From positions 1 to 47,879 of the forward strand of contig JAMPXH010000019.1 of NCBI GenBank assembly GCA_023701285.1: a stretch of DNA of 47,879 nt, in the 5' to 3' direction. Shown one piece after another: positions 1-45,332 of the stretch. The DNA comes from Candidatus Didemnitutus sp. Lineage in GTDB: Bacteria; Verrucomicrobiota; Verrucomicrobiia; Opitutales; Opitutaceae. Every line of letters begins with the position of its first letter. The first letter of the stretch is position 1. Position numbers and translations under genes: made by a program. The notes below the pieces were generated by a model that was not told the origin of the DNA, searched no databases, and was given only the letters and a program-made list of their open reading frames with translations.

Positions 1-3000
1 GCGCGCGCCACGACCACCGCCAACGTCCGCACCTTCACCGTGCTGCCGGTGAACGACGCGCCCACCGCCACCTTGCCCGGCAATCCCGTCGTCGACGAGG
101 ACAGCGCTCCCTTCACGGTCACCATCACCGATCTCTCCCCAGGCCCGGCCAACGAATCCTCCCAGCAGGTCATCGCGGTCACGGCCTCCGTCGGCGCGCA
201 GACCACGCCCGGCCTGATCCAGGCCGTCACCGCGGATTACACGCCCGGTGCCAGCTCCGCCGCGCTGACCGTCACGCTCGGCGCAGGCCTCGCCGGCACG
301 GCGCAGATCGACGTCACGATTCAGGACAACGGCGGCACCGCGCCCGGCGCCGATACCTCCACCGCGAGCTTCCTCGTCACCGTGCGTCCCGTCGCCGATC
401 CGCCGAAACTCGTCGAAGGGCAGGGGCAGAAATTCGCCGCCTTCACCAACGACCAGCTCCCGTCCAACCGCCAGGTTGCGATCGACCTCTCCGGCGTCTT
501 CACCGATGCCGACGGCGACCCCATCAGCCTCGTCTTCCAATCCATCGTCGACGACGACCACATCCTCGACGACGAGGCGCCCGGCGGCCTCGTCTTCTCC
601 GCCTCGTCGCCGCAGACCCTGCTCGTCACCTTCCCGCCCGACGCCTACGGCGAAGCCACCATCGTCTTCCAAGCCCTTGCCGGCGGCGTGTTCTCGCAGG
701 ACACCGCCACGCTCCGCATCCAGCTCACGCCGCCGCTCGGCGCCCCGTCGTTCCGCGCCATCCCTGCGCTGGCCTTCGACGAGGATTCCGGCAACCAGAC
801 CGTCTCCGTCCTCGAGATTCGCGGCGGCCTGCCGGCGCCGGGCCCCGCCACCGTGCAGACGCTCACCGCGCAGATTGTCTCTGCCACACCGGCCGACCTC
901 TTCGCCCCCGTCGCGTCCGGCGACGTCACTTACACCGCCGGCGCGGAGACCGGCACCATCATCCTGCGCCCGGCCGCGAACCGCTCCGGCACCGCCACGC
1001 TCCGCGTCACCGTCACCGACGACGGCACCGCCTCCGCTGCGCGCGCCGTCACCTTCACGCAGGACGTGCCCGTCGTCGTCCGCAACGTCGACGACCGGCC
1101 CTACCGCGTGCAGCCGTTCTCGCCCCCGACCTTCAACGAGGATCAGTTCCTCGCCGCCGGCGGCCGCGCCGCCCTCGACCTCACCGGCATCTTCGCCGAC
1201 GACGAAGGCGCCCCCGTGCGCGTGCGCATCCTCTCCATTGCCGACCCCGCTGACGTCATCGACCAGGAGAACGGCCACACCGCCACCGATCCCTTCAACC
1301 CCGAGCGCATCCTCCTTGCCCTGAACGAGAATGCCTCCGGCTCCGTCACCTTCACCGTCGGCGCCACCGCCAACGGCGTCGACTCGACCGACACCGACGT
1401 CTTCACCCTCGTAGTCAACCCCGTCAACGATCCGCCCACGCTCGACCCGCTCGCCACGCTGGCCATCACGCAGCAGCAGGCCACCTACAGCGTTCCGCTC
1501 AGCGGTCTCGGCGTCGGCCCCGCCAACGAGTCCGCGCAAAACCTCCTCGCGCTCACGCCCACCGTCCAGTCCTCGACCGTGCCCGGCCTCATCACGAACC
1601 TCGCCGTCACCCACCAGGGCAACGACGCCACCGGCACGCTCACGTTCAGCCTCGGCGCGCGCTTCGGCACCGCCGTGATCCAGCTCGCCGTGCAGGACGA
1701 CGGCGGCACCGCCCGCGGCGGCGTCGACACCTTCACGCGCACCCTCACGGTCAACGTCAACATTGCCGACAAGCCGCCGACACTCGTGCAACCCGCCGCG
1801 CCGCTCACGTTCCTCGAGGATCAGTTCACCGCCGCGGCCGGGGTCACCACCGTCAGCCTCGCCGGCAGCTACGCCGATCCCGATGGCGACGCCGTCACCT
1901 ACCAGCTTGGCGCCATCACCGATCCGGCCGACATCCTCGCCGACGAGCAGCCGGCCGGAGTCGCCCTCACCGGCGCCGCCGGCGATGCGCTCAAACTCAC
2001 GCTTCGCCCCAACGCCTTCGGCTCCGCCTCCGTGCGCTACCGCGCCGGCTCCCGCGGCCTCTTCTCGCCCACTTACGACACCCTCCAGATCACCGTCACG
2101 CCGGTGAACGACGCGCCCGCGCTCGACCAAATCTCCTCCGTCAGCGTGCCCGCCGGGTCGGCCGAAAAAGTCGTCACACTCTCCGGCCTCAACGTCGGCC
2201 CGCGCGAGTCCGCCGTGCAAACCCTCCTCGGCGTGTCCGCCACCGTCACCGGCGGTGCCGCGCAATTCGCCGCCGCCCCGAGCGTCACGCTCGACGCCTC
2301 CGGCCGCACCGCGACCCTCCGCTTCACGCCGTCCAACACCGCCGGCACCGCGACCGTGCAGGTCGCCGTGCAGGACAACGGCGGCACGGACAACAGCGGC
2401 ATCGATACCGTCACGCGCAGCTTCACCGTCACCGTCACGCCCGTCGACCATCCGCCCGTGCCGTCCGGCGCCGCGCCCGCGTATACCTACGCCGAGGATC
2501 AGTTCGCCGGCGCCGCCAACCTCACCACCGAGACGCTGCCCGCGCTCTTCACCGATCCCGACGGCGACGCCGTCTCGCTGCTGCTCGGCGCGATCAGCGA
2601 CCCCGACGATGTGCTCGATAACGAGAATAGCCGCGTGCTCCTGCTGCCCGGCAACGTCTTGCAACTCGCCTTCGTTCCCGACGCGCACGGCGCCGCGACC
2701 GTGCCTGTCTACGGCTTTGCCAACGGCCGGCGCTCCGAGCAGCCGCAAAACCTCGTCATCACCGTCACCGCCGTGAACGACGCGCCGCTCGCCGGCGTGC
2801 CCGAGCGCGTCGTCGTCGCGCCCGATCAGACGCGCGTCTCCTTCATGCTCGAACTCCAGTCACCCGGCCCGAAGGAGCAGGAGCAGCGCCTTGCCACGCT
2901 CGAGGCCACCTGGACCTCCCATGCTGGCGAAAACGTGGAGCTCCCATCGCTCGCCTTCTCCCGCGCTGGCGCCGTGCCGGTGGAGATCGCTCTGCCCGGC

Positions 3001-4086
3001 GGAGCCGCGTTCGCCGAAGGCACGCTGCGCTTCACGGTGCGCGATGACGGCGGCACCGCCCGCGGCGGCGTCGACGCACTTACGCGCGACGTGGCTTTCG
3101 CCCGCGAGGCCGGCGAGCGTCCGTGGCGCGTGCTCGCGGCGCCCGCGCCGACCGTGCGTCCCGCCACGCTCGGCGGGGTGGCGGGCCTGCAACTGGATTT
3201 CGGCGGCCGTTACGCCGCCCGCGGTCTCGGCCGGGTCGAGCTTGTGCCGCTCGGCCTCGACGACCCCGCCGGCGCCATCGACCTCGCCCGCTCCGGCCGC
3301 GTCGCCGACGAGCCCACGCAACTCTTCCTCGCGCTCGTGCCCGGCGCGCCCGCGGCCACGGTGGCCATCGCCTACACGGCGGCGAGCGAAGGCCGCCTCG
3401 CGGCCACGCCCGAAACCTTCACGTTCCACACCGGCACCGTCGCGGCGACGGTCGCCGCCGGTCCGGGCGAATCCGCGCTGCACGCGCGCCCGGTGATCGA
3501 TGGGCAATTCCGTCCTGATGTCTTCGCCGTCCGCGCGCAACCGGAGGCGGGTTTCCCGGCCTTCACGCGCTGGATTTGGCTCAGCGCCGGCAACGATGCC
3601 GGTTTCGGCGCCCGCTCCGCGGAGACACCGGAGGGAGAGTTCGCCTCCGCCGTGTTGCAGGTGCCGGTCACGGACGGTGAAGCGGTTGTTTACGAGACCG
3701 TCGCCCGGAGTGCCTTCGTGCGCCGGCGGACCGAGGCCGACGCGGCAGCGAACCGGCTGGCCGACGACGATCAGGACGGCATCCCCGCCTTCATCGAACG
3801 CCTCATGGGTCTCGACCCGGCCCGGCGCGAGACCGCAGCGCTGCACCCGACTTTCGTGCGCGAACGCGGCCGCGATTGGCTGGAGCTGCGCTACAGCCGC
3901 ATGAAGACGCGCACCGAGGGTGTCCTGCAGCTCGAGCGTCTCGACGAACAGGGCCGCTGGGTGCCCGATACGACTGCGCCGGAGATTCTCGAATCGCACG
4001 ACGAATCCGACTTGGTGCGCGTGCTTTATCCGCTCGATGGCACGCGGCCCGTGCTCGTGCGCTTCCGCGCGGCTCCGGTGGAGTGA
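1..4086 (+). CDS. Giant secreted repeat protein with cadherin/Ig-like modules (5' end outside window)
   Basis: The reading frame is open from base 1, so the start and any signal peptide lie to the left; 1361 residues are visible. It consists of about five copies of a roughly 225-residue super-repeat, each made of two beta-rich modules. One carries 'GPANESxQ' and 'VQDxGGTxxGGxDTxTR' signatures. The other carries 'EDQF', 'ADPDGDAV' and '[12 protein letters not shown]' signatures. Linkers read 'VNDAP' or 'VNDPP', as in bacterial cadherin-like and tandem Ig-like surface proteins. The acidic D/N motifs suggest calcium binding. The last 120 residues form a different module starting '[19 protein letters not shown]', related to the C-terminal modules of two other secreted proteins in this window. 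A role as surface adhesin or matrix protein is inferred; no catalytic domain is visible. ATG at 40 is an internal methionine. Confidence 0.85.
49..3470 (+). repeat. Five tandem two-module super-repeats (period about 680 nt) in the surface protein gene
   Basis: Module pairs begin near bases 49, 731, 1438, 2119 and 2788, giving spacings of about 682, 707, 681 and 669 nt. The DNA 'gtgaacgacgcgcc' recurs at the module joints near 49, 2104 and 2773. Copies 3 and 4 are the most alike and copy 5 is the most diverged, with its second half (about 3114-3470) barely recognisable. Boundaries are approximate because they were set by eye from the translation. Confidence 0.7.
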
Positions 4087-13041: not shown

Positions 13042-13905
13042 TCAGGCGCGGCGGCGGCGCAGGAGGCACGCGGCGAGCAGGGCGAGCGCGCCTGAGCCCA
13101 GCGCGTAGGTGGAGGGCTCGGGGATCGCCGTGGCCGTCAGCGTGATGTTGTCGAGATACATGTTCGTGCCGGACGAAGTGGAGAACGACACCGTGTCGAA
13201 GCCGAAGGTGACCGGCGTGGTGTCCGTCACGGTGTAGCTCCAGGAGTTGGACGGATTGCTGGCCTGCGTGAGCGTGTAGGTCATCTCAAGATGGCCGGCG
13301 GCGGTGCGCGTGATGGAGAAGAGGCCGTTGTAGTAATTCGGCTCGGGCGTGTCCGTGATGCCGAAGGTGAAACTGCTCGTGCCGACGACGGTGTAGCCGC
13401 TGGTGGAGGTGAGCAGCGCGGTGTTGGCGAGGCCGGTGGCGCGCTCGCGGATGGAGGAGTTGGTCGTGTAGCCGGCGGTGACTGCGTAGCCGCTGTAGGG
13501 GGCGAAGATGTTGTTGGTGCCGTCGGCGGTGAGGCGTGTGTTGCCGTTGGAGTTGAACAGGCCGAGCTTCAGCGCCGTGTTGCCGGTCGGATCGGTATTG
13601 GAGGCGTAGGCGATGTCGAAGGTCAGCGTCAGGGTCTGGCCGGCGGTCGCGAGCGTGAAGGGCGAACCGGACGCGGTGAAGTAGGACGTGATCGAGAGGC
13701 CGGAGTTGGTGGTGAGTGCGCCGCTGGTGACGCCGGCGTTGGACGAGGTGGCGGAGCTGATCAACCACGCGGCGGAGCCGGGCAGCGTCTGGCCGCTGCG
13801 GTTGCCGTCGGAGAACGTGTCGCTGAGCAGCACCTGCGCGCCGGCCGAGGTGGCGAGCAACAGGCCGCCGACGAGCGCGAGGGAGAGGAATCGGGGATTT
13901 TTCAT
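13042..13905 (-). CDS. PEP-CTERM sorting domain-containing exported protein
   Basis: The 287-residue protein has a signal peptide ('LSLALVGGLLLATSAGAQ', about residues 7-24) and ends in a PEP-CTERM anchor: 'AIPEPSTYALGSGALALLA' followed by 'ACLLRRRRA'. Proteins with this tail are recognised by the EpsH/exosortase machinery in exopolysaccharide-producing bacteria and are processed at the PEP motif. The body (about 25-235) is a Ser/Thr-rich beta domain with 'LKLGLFNSNGNTRL' and 'FAPYSGYAVTAGY'. It is homologous to two modules in the large beta-helix protein encoded 46 nt upstream on the same strand. The two genes may form one transcript, ended by the terminator at 12983-13013. Function unknown; possibly a carbohydrate-binding or matrix component. 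Confidence 0.88.
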   Translation of the reverse strand: MKNPRFLSLALVGGLLLATSAGAQVLLSDTFSDGNRSGQTLPGSAAWLISSATSSNAGVTSGALTTNSGLSITSYFTASGSPFTLATAGQTLTLTFDIAYASNTDPTGNTALKLGLFNSNGNTRLTADGTNNIFAPYSGYAVTAGYTTNSSIRERATGLANTALLTSTSGYTVVGTSSFTFGITDTPEPNYYNGLFSITRTAAGHLEMTYTLTQASNPSNSWSYTVTDTTPVTFGFDTVSFSTSSGTNMYLDNITLTATAIPEPSTYALGSGALALLAACLLRRRRA

Positions 13906-13951: not shown

Positions 13952-16900
13952 TCAGGGCGCGGTCGCCGGAGCGACGCGCAGGCGGACGAACCAGTGCGCC
14001 GTGACAGGTGCAGGGAGCGTGACCGTGACGGTTTCTTCGCCGGGGGCGCCGGGGCTCACGACGGGCGTGGCGGCAACGTCGCTCCACGCGCCGAGATCCG
14101 CAGATTGCTCGACGAAGTAGGAGATGTCGGCGCGTCCGGCGGGACGGCTGAAGCGGAACACATAGTTCCCAGCCTCGACCGTGAACGAAGGCAGACGGTG
14201 CGCGTCGGCACCGGCGGGATCGGTGCCGAGCGCGTATTCGAGCAGGTTGGCGAGACCGTCGGCGTCGGGGTCGTCGGTGGCACCCGTCGCGCCGGCGGGT
14301 GCGCGGGCGGCGATCCAGGTGGCGAAGCCGTCGAGCACGGTGAGCTGCGCCGGCGCGCTGGTGACGGCGCCGGCCTCGTTGCCGACCGTGACGCGGTAAA
14401 CGCCGGCGTGAAGCGCGGTGACGGGGCCGAGCGTGAGCGTGGACTCCGTGGCGCCGGGGATGGCCGCGCCGTCGAGCGACCATTGGTAAGTGAAGGGCGG
14501 CGTGCCGCCGGCGGTGACGCCGAACGTGACGGTGGCGCCGGCGGCGACCTGTTGCGCGACGGGGCCGGCGAGGATCTCGGGTGCGTCGGCGAGGAGCGCG
14601 GAGCCGACGCCGAGGTCGATCTGGCGGACGTTGATCGAAGTGAGCGAGCCGGAGACGCTGTGCACGCCGAGCGTGTCGAATTTCGTGTAGGCCCCCATCG
14701 GGTCGGAGAGGAGCGCCTCCTGCAGGATCGTGCCGGAGCCGTCGGCGGCCTCGATGCGCAGCGTGAGCGCGACGGCGGTGGCGGCGGTGCGCGCGACTTC
14801 GAGGCTGACGTGATAGGCGACGGTGCTGGTGAGCGCGGCGCCGGGCGTGCCGGCGCGGCCAAGCTGGGTGTAGCCGTTGCCACTGAGGTTGCTGAGCAGG
14901 GCGGCGCTCGACGCGTTGGTGCCGTGCTTCACGAACAACACCGGCGCGGCGGCGTCGCCGGCGGCGGAGGTGAGGTTCACGGCGGCGAAGTAGCCCTGGT
15001 AGGCCTTGATGGCGTTGTCGGAGGCGGAATTCGCGAGGTTGCCGGCGAGCCGCGTGCCGGTGGAGGAATCGAAGAGGCCGAGGCGGAAACCGTCCGCGAA
15101 GGACGCGGTCGCGAGGCCGTTGCACGCGAGCGTGAGCTGCACGACGAGTTTCTGGCCGACCTCGAGCGTGACGGGGCCGAACGTCGGCGCTCCGGCCGCG
15201 CCGGTGGGTTGCGTGAGATAACCGATGATCGTGCGGCTGGCGTTGAATTGCAGGGAGCCGTTCGTGCCGGCCCCGGCGTCGCCGGCGGTGTAGGTGAGCG
15301 TGCCGGAGCTGCCGAAATAGGCGCCGGCGTCGGGCGGGGCGAGCGCCGCGGCGGAGGCGGCGCGGAAGTGGTCGCTGAGCAACGGCGTGAGTTGGCCGAG
15401 CGGGCGGCGCACGTCGACCTGCGCGGGCGGGCTCGCGGCCGAGCCGCCGGCGTTGGTGACGACGACATGATAGGCGCCGGCATCGGCGCTCGTGACCTGG
15501 GTCAGCGTGAGCGTCGCGGCGGTCGCGTCGTCGAGCGCGACGCCGTCCTTGAACCACTGGTAAGTCAGCGGCGTGCTGCCGGTGGCGACGACGGAGAGGG
15601 TGAGGTTGGCGCCGCTGGTGACGGTGGCCGCGGCGGGTGGCGTGGCGATGGCGGGCGGGACGATGACCTCGACGACAAGCGTCGCCGGCGCGCTGGTGAC
15701 GGTGCCCTCGCGGTTCGCGACGGTGACGGAATAATCGCCGGCGTCGGCAGTCGTGACGGCGCTGAGGTGCAGCGTGGCGGAGGTCTGGCCGGCGAGCACG
15801 GTGTCGCCGCGCCGCCACGTGTAGGTGGGCAACGGGTAACCGGTGGCAACGACGGTGAAGGTGACCGCGTCGCCCGCGGTGACGGTGACGCCGGCCGGCG
15901 GCGCGAGGATGACCGGCGCGGCGGGCGTCGTGCTGACGCCGAGCACGGCGGCGGGCGCGCTGGTGACGGAGCCCTGCGCGTTGGCGACGGTGACGGTGTA
16001 GGCGGAGGCGTCGTCTTCCGGCGTGACGGGGAAGCGCGTGTAGGTGGCGGCGGTGGCGCCTTCGATCGCGCTGCCGTTGCGGTGCCATTGGTAGGTGAGT
16101 GGGGCGGAGCCGAGCGCGAAGACGGTGAAGGCGGCGGGCTCGCCGGCGTTGACCGTGAGGCTGGCGGGCGCGGTGACGATCTGCGGTGCGGCGGGCGCAC
16201 CGGCGGTGAACGCGGCCACGACGACGGCGCTGTCGAGCTTGCCCGGCGCGTAGGCCAGAGCGCGGAGCGTGACGTCGCCGGTGAGCGGGATGGGCGCGGT
16301 GTAAAGCGTGCCGGTGACGGGCGTGGGCGTGCTGCCGTCCGTCGTGTAGCGGATCGCGGCGCCGGGCGTGGCGCAGGCGAGCGTGATTTCCTGCTGGAGA
16401 CCGTAGGCGCCGGCGGCGGGTGTGAAGACCGGATCGGCGGTGAAGCCGTCGGCGGCGAGGTAGGCGAGGTAAGGATCGCCGGTGGCGCCGTCGTGCGGCA
16501 GGATATGGCCGAGCGGCTGGCCGCCGGGGCCGTCCCAGGTGAGTTCGACGAAGTTCGCCGCGGGCACCAAGATGTTGGTGGTGGAGCCGGCCGGGTCGTA
16601 GAGGTTGGTGACGTTGCTGGTGGAGTAATCGTCGTAGAGCTTCACCGGGATGGTGCTGCTCGTGATGTAGATGAGGGACGTGGTGTTCTCGACGCGGGTG
16701 CGCTTCAGCTCGTAGTCGCCGCCGTAGCGGTTGCCGTCGCTGGCGGCGGACATGCGGATGGTCGTGAAGGCGGCCGTGGTGTTGTTGAGGTCGTTGACCT
16801 TGCAGTTGATGTATTGGACGCGGTCGGCGCGGCCGAAGAAGCCGGAGTCGCCGTGGCTCGCGCCTTTCTTCGGCTCGATGGTGCCGGAGTAGTCGGCGGT

Positions 16901-18343
16901 GCAGTTGATGTATTTGATGTCGTGCGAGCCTTCCTTGGCGTCGTAGCCGTCGTTCACGCCGTCGGTGGCGTAGCAGTTGAAAAAGGTGACCCAGCCGCTG
17001 GTGTCGGGCGAGGTGGGTGTCTCCCAGTTGTTGTCGGCATCGCCGACGTAGAAGCCCTCGCCGAAGTCCTTCATCTGGCCGGTGCGGCGGGCGGAGCAAT
17101 CGAGGAAGAGCCAGCGTTGCGAGTAGCGCTTCACCTTGAAGGCCTCCTGCTGCACGTCCATGGCGTGGACGTTCTTCGCGATGCCGTGCTTGGCGTTGAA
17201 GAGGTAGAGCGCCTTCCAGTAATTTTTGATGACGAGGTTCTCGATGCGGTAGTGGTCGTGGTTGATGCGCAGGCCGAAGCCGGTGTTGTCGCCCTGCAGC
17301 ACGGCGGTGCCGTCGCCGCGGATGGTGATGGGTGCCTCGGCGGTGCCGGCGACGTAGGTCTGGAACGGCCCGCGGTGCACGCCGGAGACGAGGATGACGT
17401 CGCCGGGGCGGGCGGCGCGCAGCTGCGCGTCGAGCGGATCGGCGTCGGGACTGCCGGTGAGCTCGCCGGTGGTGGTGACCGTGGCACCGTGCAGCGTGAA
17501 CGACGTCATCGAGTTGCTCGTGGCGTTGAAGGCGACGGCGTCGAACAGCGTCGCGACCGGCGCGGCGGCGAGGCCGGTGGCGCCGAGGTCGAGCGCGGCG
17601 AAGCTCTCCAGCGGCACGTCCGGCGCGCTGGCCGCGGCGACGGAGAACTCGATGCGGAGCGCGTCCTCCTCCGTGCGCAGCAGGCGGAGCGTGCCGAGGT
17701 AGCGGACGTCGGGCGTGAGCGCGACCGAGTCGCCGCGCACCGCGCCGCCGGCCGTGCCGTCGGCGGTGAGCGGGGCGGCGTAGAACGCGGCGTTCTGGTT
17801 GAGCAGGTTGTTGTTGGCCGCGCCGGGATCGCGCCGGCGGACGGAGATGCCGCTGGTGGTGCCGCCGATGTTGAAGGTCACGGCGTAGCCGGCGTAGGGG
17901 ATGAAGGTGTCGGCGCCGAGGCCGAGGTTGTCGCGCGTGACGCGCTGGCCGGTGGAGTTGAAGAGGCCGATCCGGAAATTGGCGGCGGAGTCACCGAGCG
18001 GTCCTTGCAGGCTGAAGGTGAATTGGAGCCGGAGTTCCTGGCCGCCGCCGAGCGATGCGTAGGAGCCGGCGGTGGTGTAGTAGCCGGTGACCATGCGCGC
18101 GGCAGCGCCGACGGCCTGCACGAGCGTGCCGTTCTCCGGTGCGGTGCCGGGTGTGTAGGTGATGTTCGAGCCGCTGCTGAGCCAGGCGGCGCCGTCGGGC
18201 GGCGCGACGGTGGTGCGCGAGGCGCGGGTGAAGGCGTCGTCCACCAGCGTGGCCTGGCCGTGCAGCGCGAGCGGGGCCGCGAGCGCGGCAAACAGGGAAA
18301 GGCCACGGACGACCGGGCGAAAAGGACGGGGCAAACGAAACAT
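13952..18343 (-). CDS. Large secreted beta-helix (polysaccharide lyase-like) protein with Ig-like and chitobiase-C domains
   Basis: The start is set at ATG 18343, followed by a signal peptide ('GLSLFAALAAPLALHGQA'), giving 1463 residues; the frame remains open upstream. Approximate order: concanavalin-like beta module (33-280); right-handed parallel beta-helix (300-600) opening 'ARPGDVILVSGVHRGPF' with 'NDGYDAKEGSHDIKYINC'; a chitobiase C-terminal-like domain (635-715, 'AIRYTTDGSTPTP'); three I-set-like Ig domains (720-980, each with 'YQW' or 'YTW' and 'DAGxYxVxVxN'); a second copy of the first module (985-1235); a fourth Ig domain; and a C-terminal module 'DPDADGLANLLEYALGTDP'. The Asp/Lys-rich helix segment resembles the calcium/lysine site of PL9 pectate lyases, so pectin or another acidic polysaccharide is the inferred substrate. 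It is divergent from a LacI-type gene that may regulate it. Confidence 0.85.
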   Translation of the reverse strand: MFRLPRPFRPVVRGLSLFAALAAPLALHGQATLVDDAFTRASRTTVAPPDGAAWLSSGSNITYTPGTAPENGTLVQAVGAAARMVTGYYTTAGSYASLGGGQELRLQFTFSLQGPLGDSAANFRIGLFNSTGQRVTRDNLGLGADTFIPYAGYAVTFNIGGTTSGISVRRRDPGAANNNLLNQNAAFYAAPLTADGTAGGAVRGDSVALTPDVRYLGTLRLLRTEEDALRIEFSVAAASAPDVPLESFAALDLGATGLAAAPVATLFDAVAFNATSNSMTSFTLHGATVTTTGELTGSPDADPLDAQLRAARPGDVILVSGVHRGPFQTYVAGTAEAPITIRGDGTAVLQGDNTGFGLRINHDHYRIENLVIKNYWKALYLFNAKHGIAKNVHAMDVQQEAFKVKRYSQRWLFLDCSARRTGQMKDFGEGFYVGDADNNWETPTSPDTSGWVTFFNCYATDGVNDGYDAKEGSHDIKYINCTADYSGTIEPKKGASHGDSGFFGRADRVQYINCKVNDLNNTTAAFTTIRMSAASDGNRYGGDYELKRTRVENTTSLIYITSSTIPVKLYDDYSTSNVTNLYDPAGSTTNILVPAANFVELTWDGPGGQPLGHILPHDGATGDPYLAYLAADGFTADPVFTPAAGAYGLQQEITLACATPGAAIRYTTDGSTPTPVTGTLYTAPIPLTGDVTLRALAYAPGKLDSAVVVAAFTAGAPAAPQIVTAPASLTVNAGEPAAFTVFALGSAPLTYQWHRNGSAIEGATAATYTRFPVTPEDDASAYTVTVANAQGSVTSAPAAVLGVSTTPAAPVILAPPAGVTVTAGDAVTFTVVATGYPLPTYTWRRGDTVLAGQTSATLHLSAVTTADAGDYSVTVANREGTVTSAPATLVVEVIVPPAIATPPAAATVTSGANLTLSVVATGSTPLTYQWFKDGVALDDATAATLTLTQVTSADAGAYHVVVTNAGGSAASPPAQVDVRRPLGQLTPLLSDHFRAASAAALAPPDAGAYFGSSGTLTYTAGDAGAGTNGSLQFNASRTIIGYLTQPTGAAGAPTFGPVTLEVGQKLVVQLTLACNGLATASFADGFRLGLFDSSTGTRLAGNLANSASDNAIKAYQGYFAAVNLTSAAGDAAAPVLFVKHGTNASSAALLSNLSGNGYTQLGRAGTPGAALTSTVAYHVSLEVARTAATAVALTLRIEAADGSGTILQEALLSDPMGAYTKFDTLGVHSVSGSLTSINVRQIDLGVGSALLADAPEILAGPVAQQVAAGATVTFGVTAGGTPPFTYQWSLDGAAIPGATESTLTLGPVTALHAGVYRVTVGNEAGAVTSAPAQLTVLDGFATWIAARAPAGATGATDDPDADGLANLLEYALGTDPAGADAHRLPSFTVEAGNYVFRFSRPAGRADISYFVEQSADLGAWSDVAATPVVSPGAPGEETVTVTLPAPVTAHWFVRLRVAPATAP

Positions 18344-18573
18344 CGGACCGCAGGGTGGGGGAACAGCTGGGCCGGTGCGGAACACCGGTCGGCAGGCACG
18401 CGAGATGCGCCCGCTGTGTCGATTATCCCGCGAGAGGGCGGCGCCGGACAATGGTCGCAGGGCTTTCATCGTTAAGTAAGGGCAATCGCAGGTTGCGTTT
18501 TCCCGGTGCAATCGACGAAAAGGGAACGTCCGCCGGCGCACCCGGGTCTCCTGCGCGTGCCGCGGGCCGACGG
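18344..18573. promoter_or_regulatory. Divergent control region between beta-helix gene and lacI-type gene
   Basis: This 230-nt spacer must hold both divergent promoters. A perfect inverted repeat, CCGGTG-N5-CACCGG, lies at 18372-18388, 29 nt upstream of the beta-helix gene start. A second pair, GCAA-N7-TTGC, lies near 18482-18496. Either could be a LacI-family operator; the first is longer. LacI-type operators usually have a central CG with even spacing, which the first does not, so the assignment is tentative. Confidence 0.35.
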
Positions 18574-19635
18574 ATGGATGCGGTGCTTGCCGAGATGTTC
18601 TCCCCTCAAAACGTGACGATGCGCGATGTGGCGGTGCGGGCCGGCGTGACGGCCGCGACCGTGTCGCTGGCGTTGCGCGACAGCCCGGAGATCTCGGCGC
18701 AGACGAAGGCGCGGGTGCTCGCGGCGGTGCAGGAGCTCGGCTACCGGCCCAATCCCTACGTGCAATCGTTGATGCGCACGCGCCGGCGCGGGCGCGGCGC
18801 GGCGAGCCAGGCCACGCTGGCGCTGTTGACGGCGTTCCCCACGCGGCAGGGCTGGCGGGCGGACCCGACGCCGATGTTCACGCAACTCTTCGCGGGGGCG
18901 GGCGAGCGGGCGGAGAGCGCAGGTTTCCGGCTCGAGGAATTCTGGCTGCACGAGCAGGGCATGTCGCCGAAACGCTTCGCGGAGGTGCTGCGCGCGCGCG
19001 GCATCGTCGGGGTGCTGGTGGCGCCGTTGCCCGAGCCGCACGCGCTGGGCGGGTTGCCGTGGGAGGATTTCGCGGCGGTCGCGCTCGGCTTCACGCTGCT
19101 CGACCCGCTGCTGCACCGCGTCGCCAACGACCACCTGCACTCGATGCTCACGGCGCACGCCGAGTGCCGCCGGCTGGGGCACCGGCGGCTCGGGCTCGTG
19201 CTGACCAAGGAGGTGCACGAGAAGGTGCAGCGCCGCTGGCTGGCGGGCTACATGCTCGCGCAGCGCGAGGACGCCGGCGAGGCGCGCCTCGAGCCCTTGT
19301 TGGCGCCCGAGCTGACGGCGGAGGAGTTCCAGCACTGGTTCGACCGGGAGCGGCCGGATGTCGTCATCACGGCCTCGCCCGGACGCGTCACCACGTGGCT
19401 GAAGGCGCGCGGACTCGCGATCCCGCGGGACGTGGGCGTGGTGAGCCTGAGCGCGCCGGAGCAGGGCGGGCCGCTGTCGGGCATCTACCAGAATTTCGAG
19501 CAGATCGGCCGGCGCGCCGTCGACCTGCTCGTGGCCGCGCTGGAGCGCAACGAGCTCGGGCCGCCCGCGCTGGCCGACACGCTGCTGGTGGACGGCGTGT
19601 GGAATCCCGGCACGACCGTGACGGTGCGCGGCTGA
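18574..19635 (+). CDS. LacI-family transcriptional regulator
   Basis: The protein is 353 residues if started at ATG 18574. The LacI-type HTH is 'TMRDVAVRAGVTAATVSLAL' followed by the hinge-helix region 'RVLAAVQELGYRPNPYVQSL'. The rest fits the periplasmic-binding-protein-like sensor domain, ending 'VDLLVAALERNELGPPALAD' and 'LLVDGVWNPGTTV'. In-frame ATGs at 18595 and 18619 are alternatives; 18619 leaves almost no residues before the HTH. It is transcribed away from the beta-helix gene, the usual arrangement for a local sugar-responsive repressor. The inducer cannot be read from sequence. Confidence 0.9.
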   Translation: MDAVLAEMFSPQNVTMRDVAVRAGVTAATVSLALRDSPEISAQTKARVLAAVQELGYRPNPYVQSLMRTRRRGRGAASQATLALLTAFPTRQGWRADPTPMFTQLFAGAGERAESAGFRLEEFWLHEQGMSPKRFAEVLRARGIVGVLVAPLPEPHALGGLPWEDFAAVALGFTLLDPLLHRVANDHLHSMLTAHAECRRLGHRRLGLVLTKEVHEKVQRRWLAGYMLAQREDAGEARLEPLLAPELTAEEFQHWFDRERPDVVITASPGRVTTWLKARGLAIPRDVGVVSLSAPEQGGPLSGIYQNFEQIGRRAVDLLVAALERNELGPPALADTLLVDGVWNPGTTVTVRG

Positions 19636-19738
19636 GGGGTGGCGCAGCTCCATCACCGGGCACGGCGCAGCGCGAAAATCGGAAGCCGGGGCTTGTCGCG
19701 CGGCTCCGCGTGCGTTCCGTTCAGCCCGTCAACCCGCC

Positions 19739-21196
19739 ATGGACCCCATCCTCTATCTCATTCTTCCCGCGCTCCTGGTCGCGGTCGTGCTGGCCTCGGT
19801 GTGGCTCGAGCGTTGGAGCGTGCCGGTGATCCTCGTCGCGCTCGGCACCGGCATCGTGTGCGGCAGCGACGTGCTGAACCTGTGGCATTTCGAGGACATG
19901 GTGCTGACCAACCAGTTCGCGAATCTCGCGCTGGTGTTCATCCTCTTCCACGGCGGTTTCATGACGAAGCGCGCGGACTTCCGCGCTGTGGCGCTGCCGG
20001 CGGGCGGGCTCGCGACGTGGGGCGTGCTGCTGACGGCGGCGGTGACCTTCGCCGTGCTGCGTTGGGGGCTCGGCTGGCCGATGGAGCTCTCGCTGCTGCT
20101 GTCCGTCATCATCTCGTCGACGGATGCGGCGGCGATCTTCTCGATCCTGCGCCGGCAATCACTGCCGCCGCGGCTCTCCTCGACCGTCGAGATCGAGAGC
20201 GCGGCGAACGACCCGATGGCGATTCTGCTGACCACGGTGGCGGTGGCGACCCTCGCCTCGGGCGAGAAGTTCACGGGCACCACGGTGCTGCTGTTCTTCT
20301 GGAAGTTCGGTGCGGGGCCGATCTTCGGCTACCTCGCCGGGCGGCTGACGATCTGGCTGTGCAACCGGCTGCAGCCGCAGGACCGCGGCTATTACTATGT
20401 GCTGTTCGTGGGCATGGTGCTGCTGACGTATGGCGTGGCCGAGCTGGCGCAGGCGAGCGGCATGCTGGCGGTGTTCACCGCGGGCTTCGTGATGGGCAAC
20501 GGCGCCTTCGTGCACAAGCAGGGCGTCCTGAATTTTTCCGAGGCGCTCTCCACCATCGTGAACATCGGCATGTTCGTGCTCATGGGCCTGCTCGTCTTCC
20601 CCGGCGAGTGGGGCGGGCTGTGGGGGCAGGGTTTGATCCTGTTCCTCGTGCTGACGCTGGTGGCGCGACCGCTGGCGGTGTTCATCGGCACGCTGGGGAT
20701 GGGGATCGGCTTTCGCGAACGATTGTTCGCCGCTTGGGCGGGGTTGCGCGGCGCGGTGCCGATCGTGCTCGCGACGTATCCGGCGGCCGCCGGCCTGCAG
20801 CTGGGCAACCAGGTGTTCAACCTCGTGTTCTTCGCGGTGCTCCTGTCGATCCTGCTGCAGGGCTCGACGCTCGGGCTGGTCGCGAAATGGCTCGGCCTCG
20901 CCCAACCGGCGCGCCCGAAGCCGCTGTTCAGCCTCGAGATGATCACGATGGCGCAGAGCGACTACGACGTGGTGGTGATCGACATGCCCGGTCCCAAGGG
21001 CGTCGAGGGCCCCCGCCTCCGCGATCTCTCGCTGCCGGAAGGCGCCATCATCACGTTGATCACGCGCGGCGATCAGGTGGTGCTGCCGAAGGGCGAGACG
21101 CGCCTGCTCGGCTGGGATCACGTAACGGTGCTGGCGCACGCGCCCGACGAGGACCGCATCCGCGCGAAGCTCCTCGAGGCGTTCCCGGCTGAGTGA
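19739..21196 (+). CDS. CPA1-family cation:proton antiporter with TrkA-C domain (NhaP2-like)
   Basis: The 485-residue inner-membrane protein has about twelve to thirteen hydrophobic segments. The sixth region shows 'ISSTDAAAIFSIL' and the ion-binding 'IESAANDPMAILL', where the adjacent Asn-Asp pair is the CPA1 signature. The C-terminal about 90 residues are cytoplasmic ('LRDLSLPEGAIITLITRGDQ' and 'VLLPKGETRLL'-like strand pattern) and match a TrkA-C/RCK_C ligand-binding domain. This combination is characteristic of NhaP2/CvrA potassium:proton antiporters rather than simple Na+/H+ exchangers. It probably helps in potassium and pH homeostasis. It lies 103 nt after the lacI-type gene in the same direction, with no functional link evident. 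Confidence 0.88.
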   Translation: MDPILYLILPALLVAVVLASVWLERWSVPVILVALGTGIVCGSDVLNLWHFEDMVLTNQFANLALVFILFHGGFMTKRADFRAVALPAGGLATWGVLLTAAVTFAVLRWGLGWPMELSLLLSVIISSTDAAAIFSILRRQSLPPRLSSTVEIESAANDPMAILLTTVAVATLASGEKFTGTTVLLFFWKFGAGPIFGYLAGRLTIWLCNRLQPQDRGYYYVLFVGMVLLTYGVAELAQASGMLAVFTAGFVMGNGAFVHKQGVLNFSEALSTIVNIGMFVLMGLLVFPGEWGGLWGQGLILFLVLTLVARPLAVFIGTLGMGIGFRERLFAAWAGLRGAVPIVLATYPAAAGLQLGNQVFNLVFFAVLLSILLQGSTLGLVAKWLGLAQPARPKPLFSLEMITMAQSDYDVVVIDMPGPKGVEGPRLRDLSLPEGAIITLITRGDQVVLPKGETRLLGWDHVTVLAHAPDEDRIRAKLLEAFPAE

Positions 21197-21263
21197 GCCG
21201 CGCCGCCGGGGGCGCGGAAAAGTTCGGTTTGCCTCGGGTGCGGGGCTTGGTTCGTGTCGCGCG

Positions 21264-22811
21264 ATGCGTTTGTCTCCACGCCTCCTGACGCTGCTGCTGG
21301 CCGTATTCGCGGCCGGGCGCGCGCTCGCCACTTTGCCTGCGGTCACCACGCCGCTGGCCGACCGCAGCTTCAGTCCCGGCGGCGCGGCCGTGACCGTCGA
21401 CCTGCGCGCGCACTTCGGGCTGCCGGGCGTGACCGGGCAGGTCGTGCAGTTCGACACCGACCTCGGCAAGTTCAACGTCGAGCTCAACGCCACCGCGGCG
21501 CCGGTGACCGTCACGAATTTCCTGAGCTATGTGAATGCGGGGCGCTACACGAACTCCTTCTTCCACCGCTCGGTGCCCGGTTTCGTCATCCAGGGCGGCG
21601 GGTTTTATGCCACCCAGAATTTGCCTGCGGTGCCGGCCTCCGCACCGATTGCACTGGAGTCGAGTTTGTTGAATGCGCGTGGGACGATCGCGATGGCGCG
21701 CACCGATCAGCCCAACACCGCGACCAGCCAGTGGTTCATCAACACCGTCGACAACTCCACCACTTTGCCGCCCGGAACCAGCGGCGGTTATGCGGTCTTC
21801 GGGCGTGTGCTCGGCTCGGGCATGAGTGTGGCGGACGCTATCGCGGGGCTGATTCGGGTGAACATCGGTGCCCCTTTCAACGAGATGCCAGTGCGCAACT
21901 GGGCTTCGGGACAGACGTTGACGTTCGACAATCTGGTCAAGGTTAAGCGCACCGACGTCGTGCCGGTGCATCCGACGACCACGAGCGTGCGCTCGGTCCT
22001 GACCTTCAGCGTGCAGAGTTCGGCGCCGGGCGTCGTGGCGGCGGCACTCGACGGCAGCGACCTCGTGTTGACGCCGGGCGGCGGCGCGGGCGCGGCGACG
22101 ATCACCGTGACGGCCACCGACACCAACGGCAACACGGTCACGGGCACGTTGACGGCGTCGGTCGACAAGCTGGCGCAGACGATCGACTTCGCGGCGCCGT
22201 CCGACCAGCCCTTCGGCCTCGCGCCGATCGGGTTGAGCGCGACGGCCTCGTCGGGGTTGCCGGTTTCCTTCACGTTGTTGGATGGGCCGGCGACGCTCAA
22301 CGGCTCCACGCTGACCGTGCTCGCGCCGGGCACGATCCGGGTGCGCGCCACGCAGGCGGGCGATGCGACTTATGCGGCGGCGCCGGCGGCGCTGGCGGTC
22401 TTCACCGTGACGCCGAATTTCACGTCGTGGCAGGTGGAGAATTTTTCCCCGGCGGAGCTGGAGGACCCGGCGATCGGCGGGCCGCAGGCGGTGCTGGCGG
22501 GGGATGGTCTGACTAACCTGTTGAAATACGCGCTCGGGCTCGACCCGCGCCTGCCGGCCAACGGGGCCTTGCCGCTGCCGGCGAGCACGGCGGGGGAGTG
22601 GACTTTCACCTACGTGCGCCCGCCGGACCGGCCCGACATCGCCTACACCGTGCTCGTTTCCACCGACCTGGCGACGTGGAGCGACACGGGCGTGACGCAT
22701 GAGCTCGTCGGCCCGGTGGACGATTGGGAACAGTGGCGCGCGCGGGTGCCACTCAGCGTGGGCGCGAAGGTGTTTTTCCGGCTCCAGGTCGAGGCGTTGT
22801 CGTCGCCCTGA
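21264..22811 (+). CDS. Secreted cyclophilin-type peptidyl-prolyl isomerase fused to Ig-like and C-terminal modules
   Basis: The 515-residue protein has a signal peptide ('LLTLLLAVFAAGRALA') followed by a cyclophilin domain (about 50-225). The motifs 'SFFHRSVPGFVIQGGGF' (active-site Arg in FHR) and 'TSQWFIN' are intact. The domain should catalyse cis-trans isomerisation of proline bonds outside the cytoplasm. Two beta-sandwich modules follow (about 230-310 and 315-390, the latter 'QTIDFAAPSDQPFG' as in MBG/Ig-like repeats). The protein ends in a verrucomicrobial-type module, 'GDGLTNLLKYALGLDP' with 'YTVLVSTDLATWSD'. The tail resembles the ends of the beta-helix protein and the giant repeat protein. 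Most cyclophilins are about 160-200 residues, so the extension is unusual. Confidence 0.88.
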   Translation: MRLSPRLLTLLLAVFAAGRALATLPAVTTPLADRSFSPGGAAVTVDLRAHFGLPGVTGQVVQFDTDLGKFNVELNATAAPVTVTNFLSYVNAGRYTNSFFHRSVPGFVIQGGGFYATQNLPAVPASAPIALESSLLNARGTIAMARTDQPNTATSQWFINTVDNSTTLPPGTSGGYAVFGRVLGSGMSVADAIAGLIRVNIGAPFNEMPVRNWASGQTLTFDNLVKVKRTDVVPVHPTTTSVRSVLTFSVQSSAPGVVAAALDGSDLVLTPGGGAGAATITVTATDTNGNTVTGTLTASVDKLAQTIDFAAPSDQPFGLAPIGLSATASSGLPVSFTLLDGPATLNGSTLTVLAPGTIRVRATQAGDATYAAAPAALAVFTVTPNFTSWQVENFSPAELEDPAIGGPQAVLAGDGLTNLLKYALGLDPRLPANGALPLPASTAGEWTFTYVRPPDRPDIAYTVLVSTDLATWSDTGVTHELVGPVDDWEQWRARVPLSVGAKVFFRLQVEALSSP

Positions 22812-42743: not shown

Positions 42744-43901
42744 ATGGGCTTTAACGGCGCCACTATGGCAACCACGTCCGCGGCGAAGCCGAAATCCAGT
42801 GTCCAAGCGGCGCAGGCGCTCGCGAAACAGAAGGCCCTCGAGAAGAAAGCGAAGACCTACAAGCTCGACCTCGGCGAGCTGGCGCTCTTCACCAGCCAGC
42901 TGGCGTCGCTACTGCAGGCCGGCCTCCCGCTCGTGTCGTGCCTGGAGGCGCTGCAGGACCAGACGGAGGACCAGATTTTCCGCATCGTCATCCGCGACGT
43001 GCGCAACGACATCGCCACGGGCACGTCGTTCTCTCAGGCGGTGAAGAAATTCCCCAACTCCTTCAACTCGCTCTTCATCTCGATGGTCGAGGCGGGCGAG
43101 GCCTCGGGTGGCCTGGCGGAGATTCTCGGCAAGGTCGCGGCCTACTTCGAATCGACGGTCAAGCTGACCAAGAAGGTGAAGTCCGCCATGACCTACCCGA
43201 TCGCGGTCATCGGCTTGGCCATCGCGCTGGTGAACGTGCTGCTCATCTTCGTCATCCCGGTGTTCGCCGAGATGTTCAAGGACTTCGGCGCCAAGCTTCC
43301 TGCGCCCACGCAGCTGCTGATCGACGTGTCGAACTTCCTCAAGGCGTGGTGGTGGGCCATCGGCCTCGGCTGCTACGGTGCCTGGGTCTTCCTCAACAAA
43401 TACACTGCGACGCCCGCCGGCCGGCGCCACAAGGACCAGTTCCTCGTGCGCGCGCCGATCTTCGGCAACCTCGTGCACAAGATCGCCCTCTCGCGCTTCT
43501 GCCGCACCTACGCGACGCTCATGCGCTCCGGCGTGCCCATCCTGCGCACGCTCGAGATCGTCTCCGCCGCGTCGGGCAAGGTCCAGGTCGAGGACGCCTG
43601 TGTCGAGATCGCCCGCCACGTCTCGCAGGGCGGACAGGTTTCCGAAGTCATGGCCGCGAACCCCTTTTTCCCGCCCATGATGAAGCACATGGTCAAGGCG
43701 GGCGAATCCACCGGCAACGTCGACGGCATGATGAACAAGATCGCCGATTTCTACGACACCGAGTGCGACGCCACCGTCGCCGCGCTCACGTCGCTGATCG
43801 AGCCGTTGCTCATCGTGTTCCTCGGCGTGGTGGTCGGCGGCATCGTCATGGCGATGTTCCTCCCGATCTTCCAACTCGGCGCGGTGGCCGGCGGCACTTG
43901 A
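42744..43901 (+). CDS. pilC: Type II secretion/type IV pilus platform protein (PilC/GspF family)
   Basis: The 385-residue inner-membrane protein has two homologous GspF domains. The first begins 'GELALFTSQLASLLQAGLPL' and contains 'NSLFISMVEAGEASGGLAEI'. The second begins 'SRFCRTYATLMRSGVPILRT' and contains 'PMMKHMVKAGESTGNVDGMM'. Three transmembrane helices follow each domain pattern, ending 'LIEPLLIVFLGVVVGGIVMA'. It anchors the pilus or pseudopilus assembly ATPase. Residues 1-30 form a Lys/Ala-rich leader. ATG 42744 has a purine-rich region upstream; ATG 42765 is possible. The assembly ATPase gene pilB is not in this window. The symbol is by family. Confidence 0.9.
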   Translation: MGFNGATMATTSAAKPKSSVQAAQALAKQKALEKKAKTYKLDLGELALFTSQLASLLQAGLPLVSCLEALQDQTEDQIFRIVIRDVRNDIATGTSFSQAVKKFPNSFNSLFISMVEAGEASGGLAEILGKVAAYFESTVKLTKKVKSAMTYPIAVIGLAIALVNVLLIFVIPVFAEMFKDFGAKLPAPTQLLIDVSNFLKAWWWAIGLGCYGAWVFLNKYTATPAGRRHKDQFLVRAPIFGNLVHKIALSRFCRTYATLMRSGVPILRTLEIVSAASGKVQVEDACVEIARHVSQGGQVSEVMAANPFFPPMMKHMVKAGESTGNVDGMMNKIADFYDTECDATVAALTSLIEPLLIVFLGVVVGGIVMAMFLPIFQLGAVAGGT

Positions 43902-44075
43902 TGGCCCGGCAGTTACGTCCGCGGTCCCGGTTCTCCGGCGGGATCGGCCCGCGCCCGCGGTGCGCCGCCGGCTTATAGGGCTGAACAGGCCGGGTGTGAA
44001 AAAACCGTTTAGCCTGCGGCGTCTAGGAACCCGCTTGCATGGCCTCGGGGCGATTCGCACAGTCATCGCTCCGCC

Positions 44076-45332
44076 ATGCCTGCCATCCTCATCGTCGACG
44101 ACCTCATCTCGATTCACGAGATGCTGGAGGCTGTCATCCAGCCGACGGGGTATGCCACGGCGTTTGCGACGGATGGCGAGAAGGCGCTGACCCGCTACAA
44201 GGCCGAGAAATTCGACCTCGTGCTGGCCGACATCGACATGAAGCCGATGGACGGCATCACGTTGCTCAAGCACCTGAAGCAATACGACCCGAGCTGCGTC
44301 GTCATCATCATGACGGCCTACGCCAGCACGGAGAGCGCGATCCAGGCGCTGAAGTTCGGGGCCTTCGACTACCTGCAGAAGCCTTTCCGGGTCGACGAAC
44401 TCATCCAGACGTTGAAGCGCGGCGTGGAGTTCAAGCGGCTGGTCACCGAGCGCGAGGCGCGCGCGGGCGCGCCGGCGGGCGTCGCGGCAGGCGATTTCGA
44501 GGCGCGCCTCGTCGGTTCGAGCCCGAAGATGACGCGGTTGGTCGCGCAGCTCCGCAAGCTCGCCACGGCGCACACTCCCGTCCTCATCACCGGCGAGCTG
44601 GGCAGCGGCCACGAGATCGCCGCCGAGTTGCTGCACCAGGCAGGCGCACCGGCCGGCAGCCCGCTGGTCGGCATCGACTGCAAGCTCAACTCCGCCGACG
44701 TCCTGCATGAAGGCTTGGTCGGCCCGAGCGGCACCGGCGGTCCCTGGGTGGAGCAGGCCCGCGGCGGCACGCTCCTGCTCCAGCACGTCCAATGCCTCGC
44801 GCCCGCCGCGCAGGAAGAGCTCGTCTCCGTGCTGCGCAGCCATTCCCACCAGCACCGCGTGGTCTGCACGACCGAGATCGACCTCGAGAAACTCACCGAG
44901 GAAGGCGGCTTCAACGAGGAGCTGTTCTACCGCATCGCCGCCCTGCCGGTGCACCTGCCGCCGCTGCGCGAGCGCTTGGAGGACCTGCCGCTCCTGATCA
45001 AGTCCGTGGCGGCCACGACCTCGAATCCCGGTTTCGACGCGCGCCAGATCGAGTTCACCGACGACGCGCTGGCCACGCTCCGCGCCTACCGCTGGCCGGG
45101 CAACCTGGCGGAGTTCACGCAGGTGATTTCGCAGGCGATCTCGACCGCCGAGGCGCGCGTCATCACCTCCGCCCAACTCCCGCTGCGCGTGCACGAGTTG
45201 AAGGACTGGCCCACGCTTGCCGATTATCTCGCCGGGCAGGAAAAACGATACCTCGCCCGCGTGCTCCACGCCACCGGCGGCGACAAGACCAAGGCCGCCC
45301 AGATCCTCGGCATCGACGCCGCCCGCCTCTGA
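44076..45332 (+). CDS. NtrC-type response regulator with degenerate AAA+ domain
   Basis: The 418-residue protein has a receiver domain with intact Asp52 ('LVLADIDMKPMDG') and Lys102 ('YLQKPF'), then a sigma-54 activator-like AAA+ domain and a Fis-type segment. The AAA+ part has lost its function motifs. Walker A is 'GELGSGHE' with His179 in place of Lys. The GAFTGA loop is missing (the region reads 'GLVGPSGTGGPWVEQARGG'). Walker B is 'GTLLLQHV' instead of LDE. The sensor II Arg is replaced ('WPGNLAEF'). The C-terminal HTH stops at 'AAQILGIDAARL', without the usual recognition-helix end. It can probably receive a phosphate but not hydrolyse ATP or activate sigma-54 polymerase. It follows pilC by 175 nt, so a role in pilus control is inferred. 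Confidence 0.88.
   Translation: MPAILIVDDLISIHEMLEAVIQPTGYATAFATDGEKALTRYKAEKFDLVLADIDMKPMDGITLLKHLKQYDPSCVVIIMTAYASTESAIQALKFGAFDYLQKPFRVDELIQTLKRGVEFKRLVTEREARAGAPAGVAAGDFEARLVGSSPKMTRLVAQLRKLATAHTPVLITGELGSGHEIAAELLHQAGAPAGSPLVGIDCKLNSADVLHEGLVGPSGTGGPWVEQARGGTLLLQHVQCLAPAAQEELVSVLRSHSHQHRVVCTTEIDLEKLTEEGGFNEELFYRIAALPVHLPPLRERLEDLPLLIKSVAATTSNPGFDARQIEFTDDALATLRAYRWPGNLAEFTQVISQAISTAEARVITSAQLPLRVHELKDWPTLADYLAGQEKRYLARVLHATGGDKTKAAQILGIDAARL

Follow-up and report, generated by a model that had tools for sequence, protein, structure and literature searches.

The type IX secretion system (T9SS) acts on unrelated cargo proteins through folded, immunoglobulin (Ig)-like C-terminal domains (PF18962/TIGR04183). 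Dockerins are built of two duplicated calcium-loop repeats and have a cohesin partner, and WxL and S-layer-homology domains, which occur in other phyla and envelope types, are terminal, repeatedly reused and bind the surface non-covalently. For PEP-CTERM, the passages of PMC1569441 that set out its criteria name a C-terminal location, often many copies per genome, and diverse proteins with signal peptides. Here, we analyzed a contig of 47,879 nucleotides from Candidatus Didemnitutus sp. (JAMPXH010000019.1, our contig C129), the whole of which is referred to as the window and which belongs to a host genome of 4.02 Mb. Three of its proteins end in a module of about 120 residues, hereafter the tail. 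Our reading, held with little better than even confidence, is that this tail folds into a C-terminal domain by which Verrucomicrobiota exoproteins are sorted to the surface or anchored there.

A C-terminal module in the window and its host genome

Using the tail of a beta-helix protein (13955..14329, minus strand) as the tblastn query against the host genome, we recovered the tail of a secreted cyclophilin at E 1.0e-13 and that of a repeat protein (3736-4080, plus strand) at E 3.5e-6. Judged by these alignments, a single homologous module closes the beta-helix protein and the cyclophilin, and a more distant version of it closes the repeat protein. Such a module on these three proteins had been proposed in the original prediction, made from the DNA alone, and it was confirmed by these searches; it is far commoner than claimed. 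The strict D-loop/NLLxYALG and YxVxxSxDLxxW patterns were found by a six-frame motif scan in the beta-helix and cyclophilin tails only, and the presence of the second motif in both agrees with what had been reported. The interval originally assigned to the module, 13952-22811, does contain the beta-helix and cyclophilin genes, but the repeat protein lies outside it, is truncated at its 5' end by the contig end and has a divergent tail.

The beta-helix/Ig-domain protein is encoded at 13952..18541 on the minus strand; the listed frame has a GTG start, and a signal-peptide-like start is present within it at ATG 18343 (MFRLPRPFRP...). Its module, supported by motif scan, tblastn, profile and structure model, contains a loop and the start of a helix (DPDADGLANLLEY; 14234-14272, minus strand) followed by a beta-sandwich whose last strand is WFVRLRV. 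The cyclophilin-type peptidylprolyl isomerase gene (21264..22811, plus strand; PF00160, E 4.2e-33) likewise has a signal-peptide-like start and ends in a module at 22428..22808 (plus strand) with a degenerate loop (VLAGDGLTNLLKYALGLDP). The repeat protein (1..4086, plus strand; Big_9-type match) is encoded by a frame that is open from window base 1, and its divergent module (~3706..4083, plus strand) was recognized by tblastn, profile and structure model.

Across the host genome, the number of places was 55 by tblastn at E<=10; with a profile built from 51 tails it was 58 at E<=0.01, 54 of them at E<=1e-5. Four of the 55 tblastn places (C119, C113, C139 and C159_36269) were kept out of the alignment. 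About 52 copies were accepted: 51 are terminal, and one is internal but nearly full-length. Two residues are invariant among the 51 aligned tails: a tryptophan (W) in the D-L-x-x-W motif and an arginine (R) in the closing strand, F-x-R-L. About five residues follow this F-x-R-L-type strand. The D/N-rich loop, with which the tail had been described as starting, is present in its DxDxDG form in 38 of the 51 host-genome tails, in 1 of 14 Akkermansia tails and in 72 of 75 tails of related proteins, the last of these being a set selected partly by this motif. Because 13 of the 51 host-genome tails and 13 of the 14 Akkermansia tails are devoid of it, the loop is not what defines the module. Two tails on contig C137 (23963-24235 and 29910-30182) have no D-loop, keep the LLAYALG helix and are fused directly to an apparent Ig domain.

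An AlphaFold2 model of the tail based on 77 sequences (mean predicted local distance difference test score, pLDDT, 94.1; predicted template modelling score, pTM, 0.86) contains helices at residues 5-12 and 31-37 and then six strands up to residue 124 of 128. With these scores, the tail is confidently predicted to be a single domain composed of two helices and an Ig/FN3-like beta-sandwich. The model of the repeat-protein tail has the same helix/strand order with small differences (pLDDT 83.9, below 50 in residues 1-18 only), an order that the alignment behind it favours.

Carrier proteins and distribution across Verrucomicrobiota

The tail is almost strictly terminal. Among the 53 host-genome carriers with a profile match, 51 end within 15 residues after the domain and 50 of them within five, a count that leans on a model built from the same tails. 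In the related set (80 loci), which lies outside the model, 75 of the 78 proteins whose stop codon is visible end within five residues after the domain, the two loci without a visible stop being left uncounted. The misses in the host genome are C139, which is internal, and C119, which is partial; C113 and C159_36269 gave no profile match and fall outside the 53. The exceptions in the related set are L105 and L145, with more than 200 residues after the domain, and L106, with 31. In addition, L149, one of the two uncounted loci, continues for at least 75 residues beyond the match and may be internal. The tail is single-copy in 52 of the 53 host-genome carriers. As a control, 85 Ig-type domains were located in 23 of the same 53 carriers, and none lies within 15 amino acids of the C-terminus. 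The expectation that the module should rarely occur in mid-protein was therefore upheld, with internal positions in 2 of 53 host-genome and 2 of 78 related proteins (the latter with more than 200 residues behind it), besides the one with 31. The nearly full-length internal copy at C139:6432-6740, located 755 residues from the protein end, is possibly a relative serving as an ordinary domain.

Carriers had also been expected to be non-cytoplasmic, and most of them appear to have export-type N-termini. By a rough, home-made rule (not SignalP), a signal-peptide-like start was assigned to 37 of 43 host-genome carriers versus 34 of 134 control open reading frames (ORFs), and to 55 of 65 related carriers versus 154 of 414 control ORFs; the controls were taken from the same loci and include other secreted proteins. 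Carriers with an open 5' end were left unscored (8 of 51 in the host genome), as were 15 of the 80 related ones. The bodies in front of the tail are varied. Within the size limit, 45 of 51 carriers match a total of 70 models in Pfam and 52 in NCBIfam at E<=1e-5 (counts that include overlapping models; 25 in each list were inspected), and the body types include chondroitinase B, BNR, RCC1, cyclophilin and esterase. Ig domains are the commonest body domain among the models listed (14 of 45 carriers), and TIGR03803, a 'choice-of-anchor' model of NCBI, matches one carrier. Single-linkage clustering of the 51 bodies resulted in 11 groups, the largest of which has 38 members and is probably held together by common Ig/repeat domains.

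Using the profile at E<=1e-5, we detected the module in 138 of 288 Verrucomicrobiota genomes. At most 15 candidates were scored per genome, so that copy numbers from this survey are lower bounds, and the profile, made from host-genome tails, may undercount elsewhere. A total of 25 genomes of the window's family were scored fully or up to 150 candidates: eight have no copy, ten have 1-5, three have 9-20 and four, including the host genome, have 35-63. Two genomes of the window's genus contain 3 and 9 copies, two genomes from another family of the class at least 97 and at least 113, and four Akkermansia (g28) genomes 1, 2, 5 and 6. Some single matches span the D-loop part only (G155 and G283). 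The module is distributed patchily, and its copy number is graded rather than all-or-many. In a wider genome scan, 78 of the best 80 of at least 314 confirmed matches carry titles of Verrucomicrobiota groups and the other two only 'bacterium'; a search of a plasmid collection returned no match to the tail. Rather than being confined to one lineage, the module is found across the phylum.

A tree of 143 tails, which is based on few columns and has many weak forks, places 13 of the 14 tails of the four Akkermansia genomes in one supported clade, where they end sulfatase, GH18 and BNR-type bodies (three with such Pfam matches). Moreover, 28 of the 51 host-genome tails form a clade with three other rows only, all from close relatives, and the host-genome label changes 22 times over the tree versus a shuffled mean of 42.0. 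Among 32 pairs of host-genome tails with at least 55% identity over at least 90 residues, eight have no detectable similarity between their bodies. It seems likely from these comparisons that the tail has spread both by duplication along with its body and by transfer between bodies.

Two carrier modules were found in A. muciniphila, at G113:C1:1138864-1139229 (L213) and G113:C1:2636291-2636650 (L214). Pfam identifies one carrier as a sulfatase that also has PA14 and BACON domains, and the other as a GH18 protein that also has laminin-G and BACON domains; in both, the module sits behind BACON, in about 120 residues without Pfam annotation. By domain content, rather than by direct locus-tag mapping, they fit the sulfatase Amuc_0953 and the GH18 protein Amuc_2164. 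Passages of PMC3048395 give these two as the BACON proteins, with BACON at the C-terminus, and a passage of PMC12834350 lists them as 3-O-S-Gal sulfatase and GH18, respectively. Amuc_2164 is described as incomplete in strains H1 and H2 in a section of PMC9415379.

Exchange with PEP-CTERM and the proposed role of the tail

Directly downstream of the beta-helix gene lies a gene for a PEP-CTERM protein (13042..13905, minus strand; PEP-CTERM found by Pfam). The N-terminal domain of the beta-helix protein and the body of this PEP-CTERM protein are homologous (E 3e-14, 32% over 262 positions), and the beta-helix protein matches the same body domain once more, less strongly, farther along (E 2e-4). 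The host genome has 37 PEP-CTERM matches at E<=0.01, not counting the window's own gene. A body common with tail carriers was found in 11 of 31 PEP-CTERM proteins versus 9 of 134 other ORFs, a comparison in which two of the 31 queries (L237 and L238) were misread and seven of the 37 matches had no locus. In the clearest pair (C115_46819/C16_57593), 442 positions are aligned at 34.6% identity, and the alignment reaches the PEP motif (gap -1) in one protein and ends nine residues before the tail in the other; in most other pairs, at least one further domain is present between body and tail. In addition, 11 of the 37 PEP-CTERM genes are separated from a tail by no more than 4 kb, against an expectation of about 3.5 (p 0.00045), a statistic that ignores contig ends and the general clustering of secreted-protein genes. 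Because bodies are common to both, tail and PEP-CTERM look like alternative C-termini on related proteins, and related bodies that also end in PEP-CTERM provide the strongest hint as to function.

PEP-CTERM was found in all 15 genomes examined, in 2 to 37 copies and irrespective of tails. Exosortase (TIGR02602, E<=1e-5) was detected in 133 of 138 genomes with tails versus 79 of 150 others, 130 of the 212 positive genomes passing the family cut-off. When exosortase was considered as the tail partner by phylogenetic profile, it was rejected, being present in all eight tail-free relatives as well. At this threshold, TIGR02602 also misses the A. muciniphila (G113) exosortase Amuc_1470, to which EpsH is assigned in a passage of PMC3048395; absences by this model are therefore unsafe.

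Surface sorting or anchoring is the best account of the tail because of its terminal position, its single copy, its varied and mostly exported bodies and its exchange with PEP-CTERM. From these features we infer a localisation role, a specific partner and a site of action. Carriers would leave the cytoplasm via their N-terminal signal peptides. The helix-capped Ig/FN3-like sandwich, whose last strand (F-x-R-L-x-V) lies practically at the protein end, may then be recognized by a partner, either a protein or a surface polymer, located at or outside the outer membrane, which would bring the carrier to the surface or retain it there. On related bodies, the tail would act as a substitute for PEP-CTERM.

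Several observations weigh against this account. No partner gene emerged when 548 neighbouring ORFs of at least 250 amino acids were clustered: no recurrent neighbour was found, the widest cluster covers six loci, and 19 of the 548 carry the tail themselves. Many genomes have 1-5 copies, and one would less expect a machine dedicated to one or two proteins; the graded copy number thus weakens the case for such a machine. PEP-CTERM numbers do not follow tail numbers in the 15 genomes, and the co-occurrence with exosortase follows clades, the enzyme being found in all eight relatives without tails. On the tree, 23 of the 51 host-genome tails are scattered among tails of other species. Moreover, 24 of the 32 similar tail pairs have related bodies, which makes simple gene duplication responsible for some of the spread. 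A term search of the main text of an Akkermansia outer-membrane proteome study found neither A. muciniphila carrier named. Of the sorting, anchoring or secretion signal originally suggested, the PEP-CTERM exchange and the reuse on unrelated bodies thus stand in support, while the graded copy number and the failure to find a partner do not fit.

A serious rival, if a rather unlikely one, is that the tail is a non-catalytic module that binds, for instance, a polysaccharide of the surface or of the substrate and is C-terminal by chance, localisation being set elsewhere. Terminal position and diverse bodies would suit such a module too. The predicted beta-sandwich belongs to a fold class common to many binding domains, several bodies are glycan-active (chondroitinase B, BNR, sulfatase and GH18), BACON, which is thought to be carbohydrate-binding, precedes the tail in both A. 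muciniphila carriers, and the copy number is graded down to one per genome. However, substrate-binding modules are commonly internal as well and multi-copy per protein, whereas the tail is hardly ever either; the cyclophilin, esterase-like and RCC1 carriers have no evident common substrate, and the exchange with PEP-CTERM also argues against simple binding.

That the tail is a structural cap, shielding the C-terminal end of long proteins made of repeats or Ig domains, appears improbable. An Ig-type domain ends within 25 amino acids of the tail in 16 of the 23 carriers having such domains, but 30 of the 53 carriers have none (by a small profile), the cyclophilin carrier is no long repeat protein, and a cap would not be missing from eight relatives yet present in 35-63 copies in others. 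We regard as very improbable a thrombospondin-3/dockerin-like calcium module in which the D-loop is the working part. The loop frequencies given above (38 of 51 host-genome tails and, in the partly motif-selected related set, 72 of 75) and TSP3_bac matches in 2 of the 51 tails (best E 9.5e-5) are in its favour; the loop-less tails, 13 of 51 in the host genome and 13 of 14 in Akkermansia, speak against it, as do the W and R of the sandwich that are invariant in all 51. Furthermore, no dockerin match was obtained among the 51 tails and no cohesin in the host genome, in a search whose positive control responded. Least credible of all is a divergent substrate domain of the known T9SS. The general plan would be the same, an Ig-like sandwich at the C-terminus of many unrelated secreted proteins, but no T9SS tail family in Pfam or NCBIfam matched any of the 51 tails at E<=0.1.

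If sorting or anchoring is true, the number of exoproteins labelled by the tail would reach up to about 100 per genome, in a phylum where routes of export have, to our knowledge, been little studied. A comparison of tail-rich with tail-free close relatives would then offer a handle for finding the machinery, and the result would bear on where A. muciniphila places its sulfatase and GH18 enzyme.

The interval 13952-22811 also encodes a LacI-type regulator (18355-19635) and a Na/H exchanger (19739-21196), each without any other Pfam domain. Elsewhere in the window, a T2SS-F/PilC-type protein is followed by a sigma-54 response regulator (42744-45332), perhaps as part of a pilus or type II secretion locus. 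The G+C content of the window is about 70%, which gives rise to many long antisense or shifted ORFs; these are probably not genes.

Comparison with known families and sorting systems

Neither Pfam nor NCBIfam has a model that covers the module, and only weak, sub-threshold matches were obtained. DUF3999 (PF13163) matches 5 of the 51 tails weakly (best E 8.3e-5) and also the tail of one Akkermansia carrier (L209, E 4.4e-4), the latter at 20 bits against a cut-off of 30 and over part of a 424-position family, which makes it a lead and not a membership. This recurring weak similarity to a family of unknown function could point to a fold relative. Matches to F5_F8_type_C_2 (6 of 51 tails, best E 0.0092) and Amuc_1099_fam (8 of 51, best E 0.0024) were taken as chance. 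Foldseek reported no match to the tail model at E<=0.001, and the best hit by sequence among solved structures (PDB) had an E of 0.13, which is not meaningful. The top VIA-align matches were FN3 domains of cytokine receptors (Z 7.7, root-mean-square deviation 2.8 over 83 residues); with Z under 8 and 7% identity, they indicate the fold class alone and imply no relationship.

Compared with TSP3 and dockerin modules, most copies outside Akkermansia have a similar DxDxDG loop followed by a helix, but the loop of the tail is dispensable, there is one loop or none, and both dockerin matches and cohesin are missing. Classical autotransporters differ in having a C-terminal beta-barrel of about 255 residues instead of a small sandwich; two autotransporter-type barrels are encoded in the host genome, and neither overlaps a tail. 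WxL and S-layer-homology domains differ in that no family match connects them with the tail in Pfam or NCBIfam. For T9SS, a search for SprA was negative in all 288 genomes and equally so in the control genomes, and T9SS domains are not among the best 50 VIA-align rows listed, which excludes nothing. The likeness to T9SS C-terminal domains is that the tail, too, is a predicted Ig-like sandwich at the extreme C-terminus of unrelated bodies.

PEP-CTERM/exosortase (TIGR02595, TIGR02602) resembles the tail in its C-terminal position on diverse signal-peptide proteins, in its frequently high number per genome and in the related bodies. The two differ in that PEP-CTERM consists of the PEP motif, a membrane helix and a basic end, whereas the tail is a folded domain of about 120 residues without these, and no PEP-CTERM model in Pfam or NCBIfam matches any of the 51 tails at E<=0.1. 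They also differ in numbers: for PEP-CTERM, the criterion is numerous copies in any genome that has it, but 10 of the 25 family genomes have 1-5 tails and A. muciniphila has two. Titles and abstracts of the openly licensed literature, together with Pfam and NCBIfam, yielded no description of the tail family; the kind of thing it would represent, a C-terminal sorting or anchoring domain, is already known. As a further and distinctly unlikely proposal, the tail might be the recognition domain of a Verrucomicrobiota machine that acts on folded proteins at the outer membrane, either moving them or fixing them there. Its clients, including two mucin-glycan enzymes of A. muciniphila, would be few in some genomes and would number dozens to a hundred elsewhere, and such a machine would be a counterpart of T9SS in function.

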